Source of the DNA: Bryobacterales bacterium
GTDB taxonomy: Bacteria; Acidobacteriota; Terriglobia; Bryobacterales; Bryobacteraceae
Direction: 5' to 3'
Assembly: GCA_025456495.1 (NCBI GenBank)
Contig: JALOKO010000003.1
Location: 1-39,730, forward strand
Length of the DNA stretch: 39,730 nt
Under the pieces are notes generated by a model, which worked only from the letters and a program-made list of their open reading frames with translations, ran no database searches and was not told the origin of the DNA. The translations under genes were made by a program, and so were the position numbers. Numbering within the stretch: position 1 is the first letter of the stretch; each line of letters starts with the position of its first letter. Positions 26,515 through 34,172 of this stretch are shown here, piece by piece.

Positions 26515-26646
26515 TTCCGCTCTGGCGCCGACGGCGGTAGCCTCGTCCGCAACGTGATCGACAATGTGGGGGGGGCTGACGCGAACGCGAGACATCGTCG
26601 CCATGATCGATGCCGTTCACGAGTTCCATGGAAGGAGCTAGCCCCG

Positions 26647-27294
26647 ATGCCGGACCTGAACCAGTTGTACGCTGCAGTTGTCGAAGGGGACCAGAAGCTT
26701 GCCATCGCTGTCACCGAAGAGGCGATTGCGGCTGGCATTCCGGCAATGGACCTCATCAATGGCTACATGATTCCGGCCATGGACGAAGTGGGCAGGCGTT
26801 ATGAATGCGAGGATTACTTCGTACCTGAACTCTTGTTGTCCGCCCGGGCAATGAAGGGCTCGCTTTCCCTGCTGCGACCACTGCTGGCGGCGCAAGGGGC
26901 AGAGCCCGTGGCGCGCGTGGCAATCGGTACGGTGAAGGGCGACCTGCACGATATCGGCAAGAACCTGGTGGCGTCCATGCTGGAGGGTGGTGGGTTTGAG
27001 GTGTACGACCTGGGCGCGGACGTGCCGCCGGAGCGCTTCATTCAGGCCATTCGAGAGCAGCGGGTTTCCATCATCTGCCTGTCCGCGTTGCTGACGGTTA
27101 CCATGCCATCCATGCGCACTACGATTGAAGCCTTGCGGGAGGCGGGTGTGCGCGACGAAGTGAAGATTCTGGTGGGTGGGGCTCCGGTGACGCAGCAGTT
27201 TGCTGACCAGATTGGCGCCGATGGCTACGGCGCGACGGCGAGCGTGGCGGTGGCGTTGGCGCGTCAGGCGGCGGGCGTTGCCGCGCATCACTAG
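26647..27294 (+). CDS. Corrinoid (B12-binding) methyl-carrier protein, MtaC/MtbC/MttC type
   Basis: A 215-residue carrier of the methyl group on cobalt. The N-terminal helical cap (residues 1-85) is followed by a Rossmann B12 domain with the base-off/His-on motif KGDLHDIGKNLV (D99, H101, G104), VYDLGADVPPERF, LSALLTVTMPSM and the final GADGYGATAS segment. The ATG at 26647 follows AAGGAG; the longer track ORF starts upstream in unconserved sequence. It is first in a five-gene operon with a homocysteine methyltransferase, a UroD-family methyltransferase and a RACE protein, so methyl groups presumably pass through it. Confidence 0.93.
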   Translation: MPDLNQLYAAVVEGDQKLAIAVTEEAIAAGIPAMDLINGYMIPAMDEVGRRYECEDYFVPELLLSARAMKGSLSLLRPLLAAQGAEPVARVAIGTVKGDLHDIGKNLVASMLEGGGFEVYDLGADVPPERFIQAIREQRVSIICLSALLTVTMPSMRTTIEALREAGVRDEVKILVGGAPVTQQFADQIGADGYGATASVAVALARQAAGVAAHH

Positions 27295-27314
27295 ACGGGT
27301 AAGGGGGGCGCGGA

Positions 27315-28202
27315 ATGACCACGATTGGGGAAATGTTGGCCCAGGGGCCCCTGTTGACGGATGGCGCCTGGGGCACCCAGTTGCAGGCTAACGGGTTGGC
27401 GATGGGGGATTGCCCGGATGTCTGGAACCTGACGCATCCGGATGCCGTGCGCGCGGTAGCGGCTGCCTACGTGGACGCGGGCAGTCGCGTAGTGCTTACC
27501 AACACCTTTCGTGCCAATGCCATCGCGCTGGGTGACTACGGACATGCCGATGATCTGGTGCGCGTCAACCAACATGGCGTGATGCTGAGCCGCGAGGCGG
27601 CTGCGGGCAAGGCCTACGTGTTCGCCTCAATCGGACCCAGCGGGAAGCTACTGGTGATGGGCGATGTTTCGAGGGATGACCTGCGGCGGGTGTTCGCCCA
27701 GCAGGCGGAAGCCCTGGCCGGCGCTGCACCGGATGCGCTGTTGCTGGAAACCTTCAGCGACCTGGACGAGGCGCTAATTGCCTTGGATGCGGCGAAGAGC
27801 ACGGGACTGCCCGTGGTGGTGAGCTTTGCCTTCGACAGCGGGAAGCAGCGCGACCGCACCATGACCGGGTTACGCCCGGAGGACGCCGCCCGCGTCATGC
27901 AGGAAGCAGGAGCCGATGCCGTGGGCGCAAACTGCGGCAACGGCATGGAGGCGTTTCCCGCGGTTTGCGCGCGCATGCGCACCGCGTCGACGCTTCCCCT
28001 CTGGATGAAGGCCAACGCGGGAATGCCGCAGATGGTGGACGGCCGCGCGGTGTATGTGGAGGAAGCAGTGTCGTTTGCGGCCCATCTGCCCGGGCTGTTG
28101 CAAGCTGGCGCCTCGTTCGTAGGTGGTTGCTGCGGCACCTCGCCGGCTTTTGTGGCTGCTCTGGCGGCTGTTTGGCGGGAGGGCGCATGCGTGTCCGCTT
28201 AG
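27315..28202 (+). CDS. Homocysteine S-methyltransferase domain protein (MetH N-terminal type)
   Basis: Stand-alone version (295 residues) of the zinc module that methylates homocysteine in MetH and BHMT. The N-terminal TDGAWGTQLQ and LTNTFRAN motifs and the three zinc cysteines, GANCGNG (C207) and GGCCGT (C272, C273), are present. It lacks the pterin-binding, B12 and activation domains of MetH; the B12 domain is the separate protein 20 bases upstream. Expected reaction: methyl-Co(III) corrinoid plus homocysteine to methionine. Use of another thiol acceptor cannot be ruled out. Confidence 0.88.
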   Translation: MTTIGEMLAQGPLLTDGAWGTQLQANGLAMGDCPDVWNLTHPDAVRAVAAAYVDAGSRVVLTNTFRANAIALGDYGHADDLVRVNQHGVMLSREAAAGKAYVFASIGPSGKLLVMGDVSRDDLRRVFAQQAEALAGAAPDALLLETFSDLDEALIALDAAKSTGLPVVVSFAFDSGKQRDRTMTGLRPEDAARVMQEAGADAVGANCGNGMEAFPAVCARMRTASTLPLWMKANAGMPQMVDGRAVYVEEAVSFAAHLPGLLQAGASFVGGCCGTSPAFVAALAAVWREGACVSA

Positions 28203-28963
28203 TGGCTTGCGAGGTGTTGTGTCGAGAGTTGAGCGCGTGTCTTGCGGAAGGTCAGTTGGTGGTGGATCCTGAGTTCCTGCCGAAGGGCCTGCACGACGAC
28301 GGGGGACCTGCCATGCGGGCGCGACTGCAGCAGTTGATTGACCAGACCGATCCCACGCGCTACCAGGCGGTCCTGCTGGGTTATGCGCTGTGCGGAACGG
28401 GGACGGCGGGGCTGGTGGCGCGCGAGATTCCCGTGGTCATTCCCCGTGCGCACGATTGCATTGCGCTGCTTCTGGGCAGTCGCGCCGCCCATGACGCGCA
28501 GATGGCGGTGGATCCTGGAACCTTCTTCCGTTCGCCGGGATGGGTGGAGCGCGGCGCGGACTTGCTGCAATTGAGCCGCAGGGCGGAACAGGAGGGGCAT
28601 ACGCTGGAGGACCTCATCCGGCGCTACGGCGAGGACAACGGGCGCTATCTGTTTGACGAGTTTCATCGCTACCGCGCCAGGTATTCGCGCCTGGTCTACA
28701 TCGATACAGGGGTTGCCGGCGGGCGGGGCTTGCAAGCGTGGGCGCGCGATGAGGCGTCGCGTAACGGATGGCGCTTTGAAACTGTCGAGGGCAACCAGGG
28801 ATGGTTCCGAAAGCTGCTGGAAGGAAGCTGGGACGACGACTTCGTCGTGTTGCGTCCGGGCGAGCAAAGCGTACACACCTACGATGACGACATCCTGCGC
28901 GCTGAGCCCGGACAGCGGCCCCAGCCACAGTTGGTTCCGCCCGCAAAGGAGGCATCGGCATGA
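28187..28963 (+). CDS. DUF1638 protein of the corrinoid operon
   Basis: A 258-residue protein of the DUF1638 family, whose function is not established but which I know mainly from corrinoid methyltransferase operons. Visible conserved-looking features are ACEVLCRE (C8, C12), GYALCGTG (C69) and PRAHDCIALLLGS (H89, C91), which together could bind a metal or a cofactor, and a later YIDTG segment. The ATG at 28187 (behind GGGAGG) overlaps the homocysteine methyltransferase gene by 16 bases, and its own stop overlaps the next gene by four. The tight coupling argues for an obligate role in the methyl-transfer pathway, such as acceptor handling or corrinoid loading (inference). Confidence 0.8.
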   Translation: MRVRLVACEVLCRELSACLAEGQLVVDPEFLPKGLHDDGGPAMRARLQQLIDQTDPTRYQAVLLGYALCGTGTAGLVAREIPVVIPRAHDCIALLLGSRAAHDAQMAVDPGTFFRSPGWVERGADLLQLSRRAEQEGHTLEDLIRRYGEDNGRYLFDEFHRYRARYSRLVYIDTGVAGGRGLQAWARDEASRNGWRFETVEGNQGWFRKLLEGSWDDDFVVLRPGEQSVHTYDDDILRAEPGQRPQPQLVPPAKEASA

Positions 28964-29970
28964 CCGGCAAACAGCGTATTCTGGCCACACTGGAAGGACT
29001 ATCCCGCGATCATCTCCCCCTGATGCCCATCACGATGATGTTCGCCGCCGATACCGCGGGTGTGCGCTACGGAGAGTATGCGCGCGACTATCGGGTGCTG
29101 GCGGAAGCGCAACTGCGCACCGCGGAAAAGTACGGCTTCGATTATGTGTCGGCGATTTCTGACCCCGCGCGCGAGGCGGCTGACCTGGGCGCGGCCATCG
29201 AGTACTTCGATGATCAACCACCGGCCATTATCGAGGAGCGGGCGCTGCTGCTGGACAAATCCAGGTTGGGGTTGCTGGCGCTGCCGGACCATAGCCAGTG
29301 CGGGCGCATGCAGGATCGGCTGTTGGCGGTGGAGGCGCTGGCTTCCCGAGTGGGAGAGGATCTGCTGGTGGAAGGCTGGGTGGAGGGCCCTTGCGCGATG
29401 GCCTCTGACCTGCGGGGCATCAACAACCTGATGCTGGATTTCCACGACGATCCGGACTTCGTCCGTGACCTCTTCGCGTTCGTGATTGCCATGGAGGTGG
29501 ATTTCGCCAAGGCGCAGATTGCCGCGGGGGCGGGAATCATCGGCATCGGTGACGCAGCGGCATCCCTGGTTGGCCCGCGCATTTACCAGAGCTTCGTGCT
29601 TGCCGGCGAGCAGCAGATGATCCGTGAGATTCATGCGGCGGGGGCCAAGGCACGCCTGCACATCTGTGGCAACACGCGCCGCATCTTGACCGGCATGGGG
29701 CAAACCGGCGCCGACATGATCGATCTGGATTCCCCCTCCCCGGTGGCTGAGGCGCGCGCGGCCATGAGCGCTTCGCAGCCCTTGCTGGGCAATCTGGATC
29801 CGGTGCGCACGCTGCGCGACGGGAGTCCGGAGTCCGTGACCAGCGCCATCGCCCAATGCCATGTCGAAGCAGGCGAGGCCTTCCTGGTGGGCGCCGGCTG
29901 TGAGATTGCCCGGGGTACGCCAGAGGCTAACGTGTTCGCAATGGCGCGCTACGCGGCATCCCATGCCTGA
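28960..29970 (+). CDS. UroD-fold corrinoid methyltransferase (MtaA/MtbA/CmuA-like)
   Basis: A 336-residue member of the uroporphyrinogen decarboxylase superfamily. The methyltransferase zinc signature H-x-C is in LHICGNT (H234, C236) with a third ligand in GAGCEIARGT (C314), a set found in MtaA/MtbA and in the methyltransferase half of CmuA but not in true UroD. In relatives these enzymes move methyl groups between a corrinoid protein and coenzyme M, or demethylate a substrate such as chloromethane. With no coenzyme M genes here, it may supply methyl groups to the corrinoid protein from an unknown donor (inference). True heme synthesis is unlikely given the neighbours. Confidence 0.87.
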   Translation: MTGKQRILATLEGLSRDHLPLMPITMMFAADTAGVRYGEYARDYRVLAEAQLRTAEKYGFDYVSAISDPAREAADLGAAIEYFDDQPPAIIEERALLLDKSRLGLLALPDHSQCGRMQDRLLAVEALASRVGEDLLVEGWVEGPCAMASDLRGINNLMLDFHDDPDFVRDLFAFVIAMEVDFAKAQIAAGAGIIGIGDAAASLVGPRIYQSFVLAGEQQMIREIHAAGAKARLHICGNTRRILTGMGQTGADMIDLDSPSPVAEARAAMSASQPLLGNLDPVRTLRDGSPESVTSAIAQCHVEAGEAFLVGAGCEIARGTPEANVFAMARYAASHA

Positions 29971-31483
29971 GCGCCGCACGCTGACTCTGCATCCGCGTCC
30001 GGGTGAACGCCTACGCGATCTGCTGTTGGCCAGCGGGATGGAGTTTCCCTGCGGCGGTGAGGGAAGCTGCGGGCAATGTCGAGTGCGCGTATCGCGTGGC
30101 GCCGTGCCAGCGACGGCCGCAATGAGCGCTTGTCTGGACGCGAAGGAACTGGCGGCTGGCTGGCGCTTGGCCTGCCTGGCGGAGTTTGACAGCGCCGAGC
30201 CCTGCAACCCTGTGGAGGTGGAGTTTCCGCCATGGCAGGGGGACGCTGCTTCGGGCGCCGTTGCGATCCTTGGCGATGAGGGGGTCCTGGCAGTAGAACC
30301 TCGGGAGGGGCTGGGCGCGGTGGTGGATGTGGGAACCACCACGTTGGTGGCGCAGGCTGTTGACCTGGCATCGGGTTTGCTGCTGTCCACGGAATCTGCA
30401 CTGAACGCGCAGTCCCGCTGGGGAGCGGACCTGATGAGCCGCATCCACCATGAACTGCAACAGCCCGGCGAACTAACAGCGCTTATCCGGCAGCAAGTGG
30501 GCGAATTGCTGACGCGCGCCAGCCATGGGCACCCGATAAGTGAGGTGCTGCTGGTGGGCAACACGGTGATGCACCACCTTTTTTGTGGCTTGTCCATCCA
30601 GGCGCTGGCCGCCGCGCCCTTCCGCACGCCGCACCTGGACGCAAACACCCTTCGCGGCTCCACGCTGGGCTGGACGTTTGCGCCTGACGCAACCGTTACC
30701 TTCCTGCCCAACCTGGGGAGCTTCGTGGGCAGCGACGTGCTTGCAGGATTGGCGGCGGTGGGGATGGAAAGCCGAGTAATGCCTGAGGCGCTACTGGACC
30801 TTGGCACCAACGGCGAGATCGCTCTGGCCACGGAGGGCGGCATCCTGTGCGCATCCACAGCTGCGGGTCCTGCCTTCGAGGCCGCCAATATTCGCCATGG
30901 CATGCGCGCGGCCCAGGGCGCCATCCATCGGGTGGATGTGGTGGATGGCCAGTTGCGCGCTGAGGTGCTGGGGAACGGAACTGCCTATGGCGTCTGCGGC
31001 AGTGGCTTGGTGGACGCGGTGGCCTGCGCGCTGGACACAGGCATGCTGAGTCCACGGGGGCGTCTGCGGTGGGGACTCTCCGCGATTGTGCTGGCCGATG
31101 GCGTAGTCATTACCCAGCGGGATATTCGCGAGCTGCAGTTAGCGAAAGCTGCTATCGCCAGCGGCCTGCGTCTGCTGCAGGATGTCGCGGGCACAAGGCC
31201 TTCTCGACTTCATCTGGCCGGGGCTTTCGGCAACTACCTCCGCCCGTCTCGTGCCGTGCGCATCGGCCTGCTACCCACAGGCGAGGGGGATGGCTACCCA
31301 CCCTGTGTGTTGGCGCCTGCCGGCAACACCGCTCTGCGTGGCGCGCGTATGCTGTTGCTGGCGCCCAACCGCCATGCCAAGGTTTTCGATGGCCTGCGCC
31401 ATCGCGCTCACCACGTTGAGCTGGCTGCGCTCCCACGGTTTCAGGAGGAGTTTGTCGATGCGCTCTTGTTCCCTGAGGCGTGA
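29963..31483 (+). CDS. Fe-S reductive activator of corrinoid proteins (RACE, ASKHA type)
   Basis: A 506-residue ATP-dependent activator that re-reduces inactive Co(II) to Co(I). The N-terminal ferredoxin-like domain has C30, C36, C39 and C71 (CGGEGSCGQC...ACLAEF), a [2Fe-2S] pattern. A linker is followed by the ASKHA/DUF4445 domain with VVDVGTTTLVAQ (about residue 115), LLDLGTNGEIAL, AGPAFEAANI and GVCGSGLVDAV. This is the architecture of RACE proteins of O-demethylase systems, and differs from the 4Fe-4S archaeal RamA. The start at 29963 overlaps the upstream gene by eight bases; the track ORF begins inside that gene. It completes the corrinoid operon. Confidence 0.92.
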   Translation: MPERRTLTLHPRPGERLRDLLLASGMEFPCGGEGSCGQCRVRVSRGAVPATAAMSACLDAKELAAGWRLACLAEFDSAEPCNPVEVEFPPWQGDAASGAVAILGDEGVLAVEPREGLGAVVDVGTTTLVAQAVDLASGLLLSTESALNAQSRWGADLMSRIHHELQQPGELTALIRQQVGELLTRASHGHPISEVLLVGNTVMHHLFCGLSIQALAAAPFRTPHLDANTLRGSTLGWTFAPDATVTFLPNLGSFVGSDVLAGLAAVGMESRVMPEALLDLGTNGEIALATEGGILCASTAAGPAFEAANIRHGMRAAQGAIHRVDVVDGQLRAEVLGNGTAYGVCGSGLVDAVACALDTGMLSPRGRLRWGLSAIVLADGVVITQRDIRELQLAKAAIASGLRLLQDVAGTRPSRLHLAGAFGNYLRPSRAVRIGLLPTGEGDGYPPCVLAPAGNTALRGARMLLLAPNRHAKVFDGLRHRAHHVELAALPRFQEEFVDALLFPEA

Positions 31484-31504: not shown

Positions 31505-32092
31505 CTAGATCATCTCGCGCAGCAGTTCCGCGCGCGGATGGGGGATCACCACCTTGTTCACCAGCAGTCCCCGGGCGCCTACCACGCGCGCCCCTGCGTC
31601 GATGGCGGTATCGACATCGGCCACTGAGCCGGTGAGCGTCACGAAGGCCTTCCCTCCTAGCGCCATCGCCAGCCGGATCTCCAGCAGTTGCACATCCGCC
31701 GCCTTCACGGCCGCGTCAGCCCCTTCAATCAGAGAAGCGACGCTGAAGGCTTCCAGCACTCCTAGGGCGTCCAAGGCTTGCAGCTTGTTGGTTCCGGCGA
31801 TGGCGGGAAACACAGCCTCATGCAAGTTGGCGATGACAAACGAATCAATCACAGACACGCTTCCGGCGCGCTTTCCAGCGGCTACCGCGGTTTGCACCTT
31901 TGCCACATCGCCGCGCACCATCACCATGAATTTTCCAGAGCAGATGGACCGCGCCAACACAATCCGCACGCCGGCGGACTTCAGCATTGCATCGCATACC
32001 TGAAAGCCCGCCGCGATGCTGCCAAGCTCAATGAGCCCGATGGAGTTCTCTGAAGATCTGCCGTCATCGCTCGCGCTGAAGTGGGTGTTCAT
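31505..32092 (-). CDS. Tandem-domain bacterial microcompartment shell protein (BMC-T), PduT-like
   Basis: A trimeric shell tile with two BMC domains: SIGLIELGSIAAGFQVCDAMLKSA (first, about residues 17-75) and ALGVLEAFSVASLIEGADAAVKAA (second, about 109-170), ending in VIPHPRAELLREM, as in PduT. The pore loop RSICSGKF has a cysteine (C51) where PduT has the cysteine (ICPGKF) that holds a [4Fe-4S] cluster at the threefold axis (family knowledge). The ATG at 32092 follows AGGA and gives 195 residues; the track's longer ORF adds 47 unconserved residues. No BMC-H, BMC-P or enzyme core genes are in the window. It converges on the RACE gene with a 21-base gap. Confidence 0.9.
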   Translation of the reverse strand: MNTHFSASDDGRSSENSIGLIELGSIAAGFQVCDAMLKSAGVRIVLARSICSGKFMVMVRGDVAKVQTAVAAGKRAGSVSVIDSFVIANLHEAVFPAIAGTNKLQALDALGVLEAFSVASLIEGADAAVKAADVQLLEIRLAMALGGKAFVTLTGSVADVDTAIDAGARVVGARGLLVNKVVIPHPRAELLREMI

Positions 32093-32310: not shown

Positions 32311-32898
32311 ATGAGCGAACGGAACGAAGCAGACTTTGTCGCGGATGGGGTGTCCTTGAGCCCGGATGAGGGCACGCCATCGTCCACGGAATCCACGCCG
32401 CCCGATGCGATGGCGCACTTGGAGCGCGAGAACCTCGACCTGAAGGACCAGTTCCTGCGCATGCGCGCGGAGTTTGACAACTTCCGCCGTCGCGTCGCTA
32501 AGGAAAAGGAAGAGATTCACGAGTACGCCAGCATGGAGGCCGTGCGGCCCTTGCTGGCTATCGCCGACGATTTCGAACGGGCGCTTGCGGTGGAATGCGC
32601 GGACTCCGGCTACGCCAAGGGGATGGAACTCATCTATCACCGCATGGGCGAGGCCTTACGCAAGATGGGGGTGGAGCCGTTGCCCGCCAAAGGGCATCCG
32701 TTTGACCCCAATCAGCATCATGCCATCGACATGGTGAAGACCGCCGATGCCCCGGACAATACGGTGCTGGACGTTTTCCAGCAGGGATATACCTTCAAGG
32801 GCAAACTGATCCGCCCCGCGGTGGTAAAGGTGGCCGTTGCTCCGGGAGAGTCCGTTGCGCCTAATGAGGATGTCCCTGTCCCTGGAGACGGGGCCTAG
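32311..32898 (+). CDS. grpE: Nucleotide exchange factor GrpE
   Basis: Releases ADP from DnaK in the Hsp70 cycle. The ATG at 32311 gives 195 residues. A disordered acidic N-terminus is followed by the long coiled coil ([26 protein letters not shown], about residues 37-62, quoted in part) and the C-terminal beta-domain with [12 protein letters not shown] and [21 protein letters not shown], the family signature. The track frame extends to a GTG at 32221 without conserved sequence. It is followed by dnaJ after 146 bases; dnaK and hrcA are not in the window. Confidence 0.94.
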
Positions 32899-33044: not shown

Positions 33045-34172
33045 ATGGTGACGAACCGCGACTATTACGAGATTCTGGGCGTAGCGAAAGGCTCCAGCGA
33101 GCAGGAATTGAAGTCCGCGTATCGCAAGCTGGCCATGAAGTACCATCCGGATCGCAATCCGGGTGATGCCGCGGCGGAGGAAAAGTTCAAGGAAGCGGCG
33201 GAGGCCTACAGCGTGCTGAGCGACCCGCAGAAGCGCGCGGCCTATGACCGCTACGGCCATGCGGGCGTGCAGGGGGCCGCTGGCGGAGGCGGGAACTACG
33301 ATCCCACCATCTTTGCGGATTTCAGCGACATCTTCGGGGACTTCTTCGGCTTCGGCGACCTCTTTGGGAGCAGTGGAGGGCGGCGCCGTAACCGTCCCGT
33401 GCGCGGCGAGGACTTGCGCTACGACCTGGAAATCGGCTTCGATGAGGCGGTGTTCGGGACAGGCGTGGAAATCCAGGTGCCCCGTCACGAGACCTGCGAG
33501 ACCTGCAATGGGTCCGGAGCGGCGTCCACCAATGGCATTGCAGTGTGCCAGGTTTGCAAGGGTTCAGGAACCCAAACTATCCAGCAGGGTTTCATCACCA
33601 TGCGACGCACCTGTGGCAATTGCGGAGGCACTGGCCAGATTCTGCGCGACCCCTGCAAGACATGCAATGGGCGGCGCTACGTGCGTAAGGAACGCAAGCT
33701 GAAGGTGAACATTCCGGCTGGTGTGGACGATGATACCCGCCTTCGTTTGCAAGGGGAAGGGGAGGCGGGCGCCAATGGCGGACCGGCTGGCGACCTTTAC
33801 GTAGTTCTTCGCGTGAAGGAACACCCGCTGTTCCATCGCGACGGGCAGGATCTTCACATCCGGGTGCAGGTGAACGTGGCGCAGGCCGTGTTGGGCGACG
33901 AAATTCTGGTGCCCACCCTGGGAGGTGAGGAACCGTTGAAGATCCCGGAAGGCACACAGCCCGGAAAGCAGTTTCGGATGAAGAATCAGGGCGTACCGTA
34001 CCTGAATGGCTCCGGCAGAGGCGACCTGTATGTCCACCTGGATGTGGTGATCCCGGACAAACTCAGCAAGGACCAACGCAAGCTGTTTGAGCAACTGCGC
34101 GAGGTGCTTCCCGCTGCTGACGCCCCCAAGGAGAAGGGCATCTTTGAGAAGGTGAAGGACTACTTCGTCTAG
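33045..34172 (+). CDS. dnaJ: Chaperone protein DnaJ (Hsp40, type I)
   Basis: Co-chaperone that delivers substrates to DnaK and stimulates its ATPase. Domains in order: J-domain with HPD (residues 34-36 in KYHPDRNPG), a Gly/Phe-rich region with [12 protein letters not shown], the zinc domain with [24 protein letters not shown] and CKTCNGRR (the fourth motif lacks its last glycine), and the C-terminal substrate-binding beta domains ending EKVKDYFV. The ATG at 33045 lies behind AAGGA, giving 375 residues. The longer track start adds 40 unconserved residues. A perfect 17-bp tandem repeat begins immediately after its stop codon. Confidence 0.96.

Follow-up and report, generated by a model that had tools for sequence, protein, structure and literature searches.

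The locus studied here raises the question of why a gene for a PduT-like microcompartment (BMC) shell protein stands alone beside an operon of corrinoid enzymes, and which cellular system it serves. The window analyzed (39,730 bp) is one entire contig of a Bryobacteraceae MAG of 4.17 Mb in 583 contigs, which is 79% complete, so that absences from this genome carry less weight. A sequence-only reading had described the gene as an orphan, either supplying a shell tile to a compartment encoded elsewhere or belonging to a compartment-linked methyl-transfer pathway.

The open reading frame, with its ATG at position 32092, encodes a 195 aa protein (Table 1) that matched Pfam PF00936 with 146 bits in two domains. 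Both domains were in order, covering profile positions 1-74 and 1-75, indicating that they are tandem and non-permuted, as in the standard-trimer (BMC-Ts) class. The top PDB sequence matches were 3nwg, 3pac (PduT), and 3n79 (PduT), with E-values from 2e-49 to 9e-43. When the AlphaFold model (pLDDT 87.5) was used for a fold search, 3pac, the "4Fe-4S cluster binding site" PduT, came first (E 1.7e-21, 42% identity), with TM scores of 0.85/0.91. The PduT-like assignment was therefore borne out by both searches. The same was true for the pore cysteine of the RSICSGKF motif: in the PDB sequence alignment with 3pac, Cys51 aligned with the PduT cysteine that ligates the 4Fe-4S cluster, and Cys51 and RxICSGK were invariant in two alignments (37/37 and 29/29 sequences). 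The tandem, non-permuted domains and the cysteine at the aligned pore position are shared with PduT of Salmonella and Citrobacter (3n79, 3pac) and with the PduT-like BMC-T of Desulfitobacterium (3nwg), whereas identity to these proteins was 40-49% and the cut-off of the NCBIfam PduT equivalog TIGR02526 was not reached (121.6 vs 250.3 bits); we therefore call the protein PduT-like rather than a PduT equivalog. A promoter scan near the gene returned two weak sites on the + strand, no site on the - strand, and no terminator.

Table 1: Features in and around the BMC-T gene of the window.
Feature	Position	Strand	Basis or remark
PduT-like BMC-T, tandem non-permuted BMC domains, 195 aa	31505..32092	-	Profile, structure matches, model
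R48-F55 codons (RSICSGKF), pore loop with invariant cysteine	31928..31951	-	Protein sequence, alignments
Convergent corrinoid methyl-transfer operon	26554..31483	+	Domain profiles; judged not to be part of the BMC system
MtgC-like corrinoid protein	26554-27294	+	Domain profiles
Homocysteine S-methyltransferase	27315-28202	+	Domain profiles
DUF1638 protein	within 27965-28963	+	Domain profiles
MtaA/CmuA-type UroD	28960-29970	+	Domain profiles
RACo-type activase	29963-31483	+	Domain profiles
grpE	32311-32898	+	Divergent from BMC-T gene; named from sequence
dnaJ	about 33045-34172	+	Divergent from BMC-T gene; named from sequence

Whether the gene is an orphan depends on the scale considered. Profile searches of the window found one PF00936 gene and no PF03319 gene, and the surroundings of the BMC-T gene there yielded neither a further shell gene nor BMC cargo, so the description stands within the window; it does not stand genome-wide, since BMC loci were found on other contigs. 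The proposed search for BMC-H and BMC-P genes recovered both on contig C444, which carries a BMC-H gene, a BMC-P triplet, and a class II aldolase whose C-terminus bears an encapsulation peptide (EP), called from an amphipathic helix after a linker. A 2-hydroxyacid dehydrogenase gene (L010:9222-9971; PF02826 domain only) lies about 3 kb from the aldolase gene on the opposite strand. A single further BMC-H gene was located on contig C36, and contig C134 is a satellite locus encoding an aldehyde dehydrogenase (AldDh) with an N-terminal amphipathic, EP-like helix. In the literature, a satellite BMC locus is a contiguous one with too few shell genes, in a genome that has a non-satellite BMC locus elsewhere (PMC4207490); the window BMC-T gene falls under this definition, C444 being the locus with both shell families. 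A full BMC locus with a PduT of its own, together with a lack of corrinoid synteny in relatives, had been named as the outcome that would speak against the sequence-only reading. The full locus exists and the synteny is lacking (see below), but the locus has no PduT of its own.

Judged by gene content, the dispersed compartment genes appear to match the ACI microcompartment type, which the main text of a BMC catalogue describes as having a class II aldolase with an EP, a hydroxyacid dehydrogenase, a BMC-P triplet, and a satellite-encoded AldDh that is phylogenetically close to MIC3 (PMC8217296). The class II aldolase with C-terminal EP, the 2-hydroxyacid dehydrogenase, the BMC-P triplet, the BMC-H, and the satellite AldDh are all shared with the ACI loci described there. 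In contrast, that main text places ACI mainly in Acidobacteria subdivisions 4 and 6, whereas the relatives considered here are Bryobacterales/Solibacter lineages (subdivision 3), and it does not mention PduS or PduT. A PduL-type PTAC (PF06130) was sought in this genome and not found, which at 79% completeness does not imply its absence. The CoA-type AldDh of this genus was present in 20/121 family genomes, compared with 92 for BMC-P.

Contig C521 (L012:3403-5111) encodes a DHDPS-family aldolase that carries an EP-like helix at its C-terminus, its gene overlapping by 4 bp with that of a tandem BMC protein of 223 aa that has no pore cysteine. Close orthologues of the aldolase were found in 34/121 family genomes, 33 of which have BMC-P, and it may represent a second enzyme carried as cargo in the ACI compartment. 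A literature search on the aldolase/BMC pair found no paper. We considered the tandem BMC protein as a second PduT and rejected it, as a reading of its pore positions gave no cysteine.

The partner of the BMC-T was sought among its relatives. The family survey covered 121 genomes, one per species, with family membership taken from kinship labels, and a BMC-T orthologue was detected in 67 of them. Synteny was read from the best 80 loci of named genomes, with flanks of up to 10 kb; 78 loci had room for an upstream gene. At 73 of these 78, pduS lay immediately upstream of the BMC-T gene on the same strand, with gaps of -74 to +183 bp, and at three more it lay 0.5-2.2 kb upstream. The BMC-T gene is thus the second gene of a two-gene pduS-BMC-T operon in relatives, and a PduS operon partner is also common to the known PduT systems. 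PduS was present in 67/67 family genomes with BMC-T and in 2/54 without, and BMC-P in 66/67 and 26/54, respectively, nine BMC-P-negative genomes being counted as the remainder of the set rather than by individual name. The protein has the fold and pore cysteine of PduT; in this lineage it has been inherited together with PduS, and nearly all genomes that carry it also have BMC-P. These counts, together with the BMC-H gene, the BMC-P triplet, and the EP-tagged aldolase and AldDh on other contigs, upheld the proposal of a satellite tile; the partner PduS had not been foreseen.

The only loci with room but without a nearby pduS (L093 and L130) belong to the same genus as the window. Unlike in the known PduT systems, pduS and the BMC-T gene are apart in this genus: no pduS adjoins the BMC-T gene in the window or in the sister species G079, and the copy in this genome is on contig C225, that of G079 on C135. 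In both the BMC-T and the PduS tree, this species paired with L093 inside Acidobacteriota (support 100/99 and 100/100, respectively); since both trees join the two species within that phylum, the separation is most simply explained by rearrangement rather than by a foreign gene. Neither PduS nor BMC-T was found in the remaining two genomes of the genus, G007 (99% complete) and G114, although both retain BMC-domain proteins, a BMC-P triplet, and an EP-type AldDh, indicating that the PduS-BMC-T module is optional. Taken together, we regard it as fairly probable that the BMC-T is both a satellite shell gene of a dispersed ACI-type compartment and one half of a PduS-PduT electron module that has been split in this genus. 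Such a satellite position outside the main BMC operon sets it apart from the Salmonella, Citrobacter, and Desulfitobacterium proteins.

BMC-T relatives at 60-71% identity, mostly with PduS upstream, were also found in records labelled Ignavibacteria, Melioribacteraceae, Chlorobiota, and Bacteroidetes (L097, L098, L158, L159, L164, L170, and L171), suggesting either that pduST has moved between phyla or that the bins are mislabelled.

The split could also mean that the BMC-T is a decaying relic. The separation of pduS from the BMC-T gene in this genome and in G079, and the absence of both genes from G007 and G114, would fit such decay, as would the state of the PduS encoded here. The latter (C225, L078:6137-8077) retains Complex1_51K, SLBB, 4Fe-4S dicluster, and RnfC_N domains but, relative to its same-genus sister, is missing 36 aa in frame within the FMN/NADH domain; the gap may be real, with the module decaying here, or an assembly error. 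However, the BMC-T gene itself is intact, with 82-86% identity to the same-genus sister and every pore residue kept, and the PduS of the sister species (C135) is full length with every domain. We therefore consider a relic unlikely and retain the satellite gene with a split electron module as the preferred reading.

What the module might do can be suggested from its biochemistry in other organisms. PduS, an FMN/Fe-S reductase that oxidizes NADH, binds to PduT (PMC2982820), and the PduT cluster lies at +99 mV, for which a role in electron exit has been proposed (PMC6325248); based on these data, NADH oxidation with electron export is the likely function. In the proposed mechanism, three Cys51 residues would bind a 4Fe-4S cluster in the pore of the trimer, and PduS, with FMN and two 4Fe-4S clusters, would dock at the lumenal face of the shell and oxidize NADH from an encapsulated dehydrogenase. 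Electrons would then pass from PduS through PduT to a cytosolic acceptor across the shell, the direction being the presumed one, and NAD+ would be regenerated inside. The EP-tagged AldDh (C134) and aldolase (C444) count in favor of this scheme; observations that count against it are that no EP was found on PduS and that the CoA-type AldDh, the candidate lumenal source of NADH, was detected in so few family genomes. GRM compartments, in which electron export across the shell has already been proposed, likewise have a PduS/PduT pair without a B12 enzyme (PMC6325248, PMC4207490). The difference is that their pduS-pduT genes are part of the main locus, together with a glycyl radical enzyme, whereas the acidobacterial compartment considered here is aldolase-based and has the pair at a satellite locus.

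Alternatively, PduS and PduT could serve as a corrin reductase module for a B12-dependent enzyme within the shell, as in the propanediol compartment. PduS of Citrobacter does reduce cobalamin (PMC2982820), and a diol dehydratase was detected in 11/67 family genomes with BMC-T compared with 1/54 of the others. However, a search confined to diol dehydratase found none in the four genomes of the genus, this one included, and 56/67 BMC-T genomes had none. The ACI core of aldolase, 2-hydroxyacid dehydrogenase, and AldDh needs no B12, and the loci known for this compartment show no enzyme that depends on it. The search results for diol dehydratase in particular make this role quite improbable here, and electron export remains the preferred function.

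The neighborhood of the gene was as previously described: the corrinoid operon runs convergently toward the BMC-T gene, with 21 bp between its end and the BMC-T stop, the adjacency being that of a single MAG contig. With 583 contigs in the assembly and the junction in one genome only, the BMC-T gene could have been placed there by chance through misassembly or misbinning. This is very unlikely for the gene itself, because its pairing with a same-genus genome at 100/99 support places it in the genus, which leaves only the adjacency in doubt.

Methyl-transfer sets with a RACo-type activase and DUF1638 are known in methionine synthesis and in N-methyl osmolyte metabolism (PMC5764234, PMC12478193), and DUF1638 has been tied genetically to B12 re-activation, without known biochemistry (PMC5764234). 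The split methionine synthase of Phaeobacter shares the corrinoid protein, the homocysteine methyltransferase, a RACo/RamA-like activase, and DUF1638 with the neighboring operon, which adds an MtaA/CmuA-type methyltransferase (PMC5764234); this likeness concerns the neighbor only and does not extend to the shell protein. The suggestion that methyl transfer was compartment-linked found no support, on three counts. First, about 1.19 Mb of DNA flanking BMC-T at 80 loci of relatives contained none of the five corrinoid genes. Second, RACo and BMC-T occur apart within the genus: RACo is missing from G079, which has BMC-T, and BMC-T from G114, which has RACo; in G099, a single-contig genome, the two genes are about 2.3 Mb apart by position. 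Third, no corrinoid protein showed an EP-like terminal extension beyond its Pfam domains and terminal helices of the kind seen on the likely cargo, the starts of RACo and of the corrinoid protein being ambiguous. The helical moments of their termini were 0.13-0.31, compared with 0.36-0.61 for the likely cargo, and the DUF1638 ends gave no helix score. The N-terminus of the UroD protein is presumably ordinary for its family. On the strength of the missing synteny, the separate occurrence within the genus, and the lack of EP-like termini, we reject a linkage of BMC-T to the corrinoid operon and take the neighborhood as incidental; the operon is an unrelated gene set, and the adjacency is a one-off rather than a sign of a shared pathway. 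A linkage to grpE-dnaJ was likewise rejected, as these genes were absent from the flanks of the best 80 relatives' loci.

RACo orthologues were present in 44/67 BMC-T genomes and 6/54 others, and within BMC-P genomes in 43/66 with BMC-T and 6/26 without, in counts that ignore phylogeny. POR, a broad ferredoxin-oxidoreductase marker used as a control for anaerobiosis, was a poor one, being nearly universal (111/121 genomes), and it leaned the same way with both BMC-T and RACo. The unlinked co-occurrence of RACo and BMC-T across Bryobacteraceae is thus a lead only. Despite these counts and the adjacency in this genome, a compartment or electron exit tied to the operon, for example through RACo with PduS/PduT electrons re-activating the corrinoid protein, is highly improbable, given the findings above and a convergent arrangement in which the genes are not co-transcribed. 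We likewise give very little credence to electrons that leave the compartment feeding cytosolic corrinoid re-activation by RACo, although, if true, this would explain the unlinked co-occurrence and give the PduT cluster a physiological acceptor.

The corrinoid operon is therefore an ordinary gene neighborhood only, and the BMC-T gene probably encodes a shell tile with electron-carrying capacity for a compartment whose parts are scattered over the genome of a soil acidobacterium. The two-gene pduS-pduT satellite locus offers a clean natural test of what PduS and PduT do outside B12-dependent compartments; the locus was found in 67/121 sampled Bryobacteraceae genomes and is missing from close relatives that keep the other compartment genes. 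These findings extend the description of the ACI type to Bryobacterales, with a redox partner that the main text of the catalogue does not mention (PMC8217296). Moreover, G007 and G114 represent a natural knock-out of the electron module, so that a comparison with relatives that carry it would set a like shell and cargo with the proposed electron exit against one lacking it.
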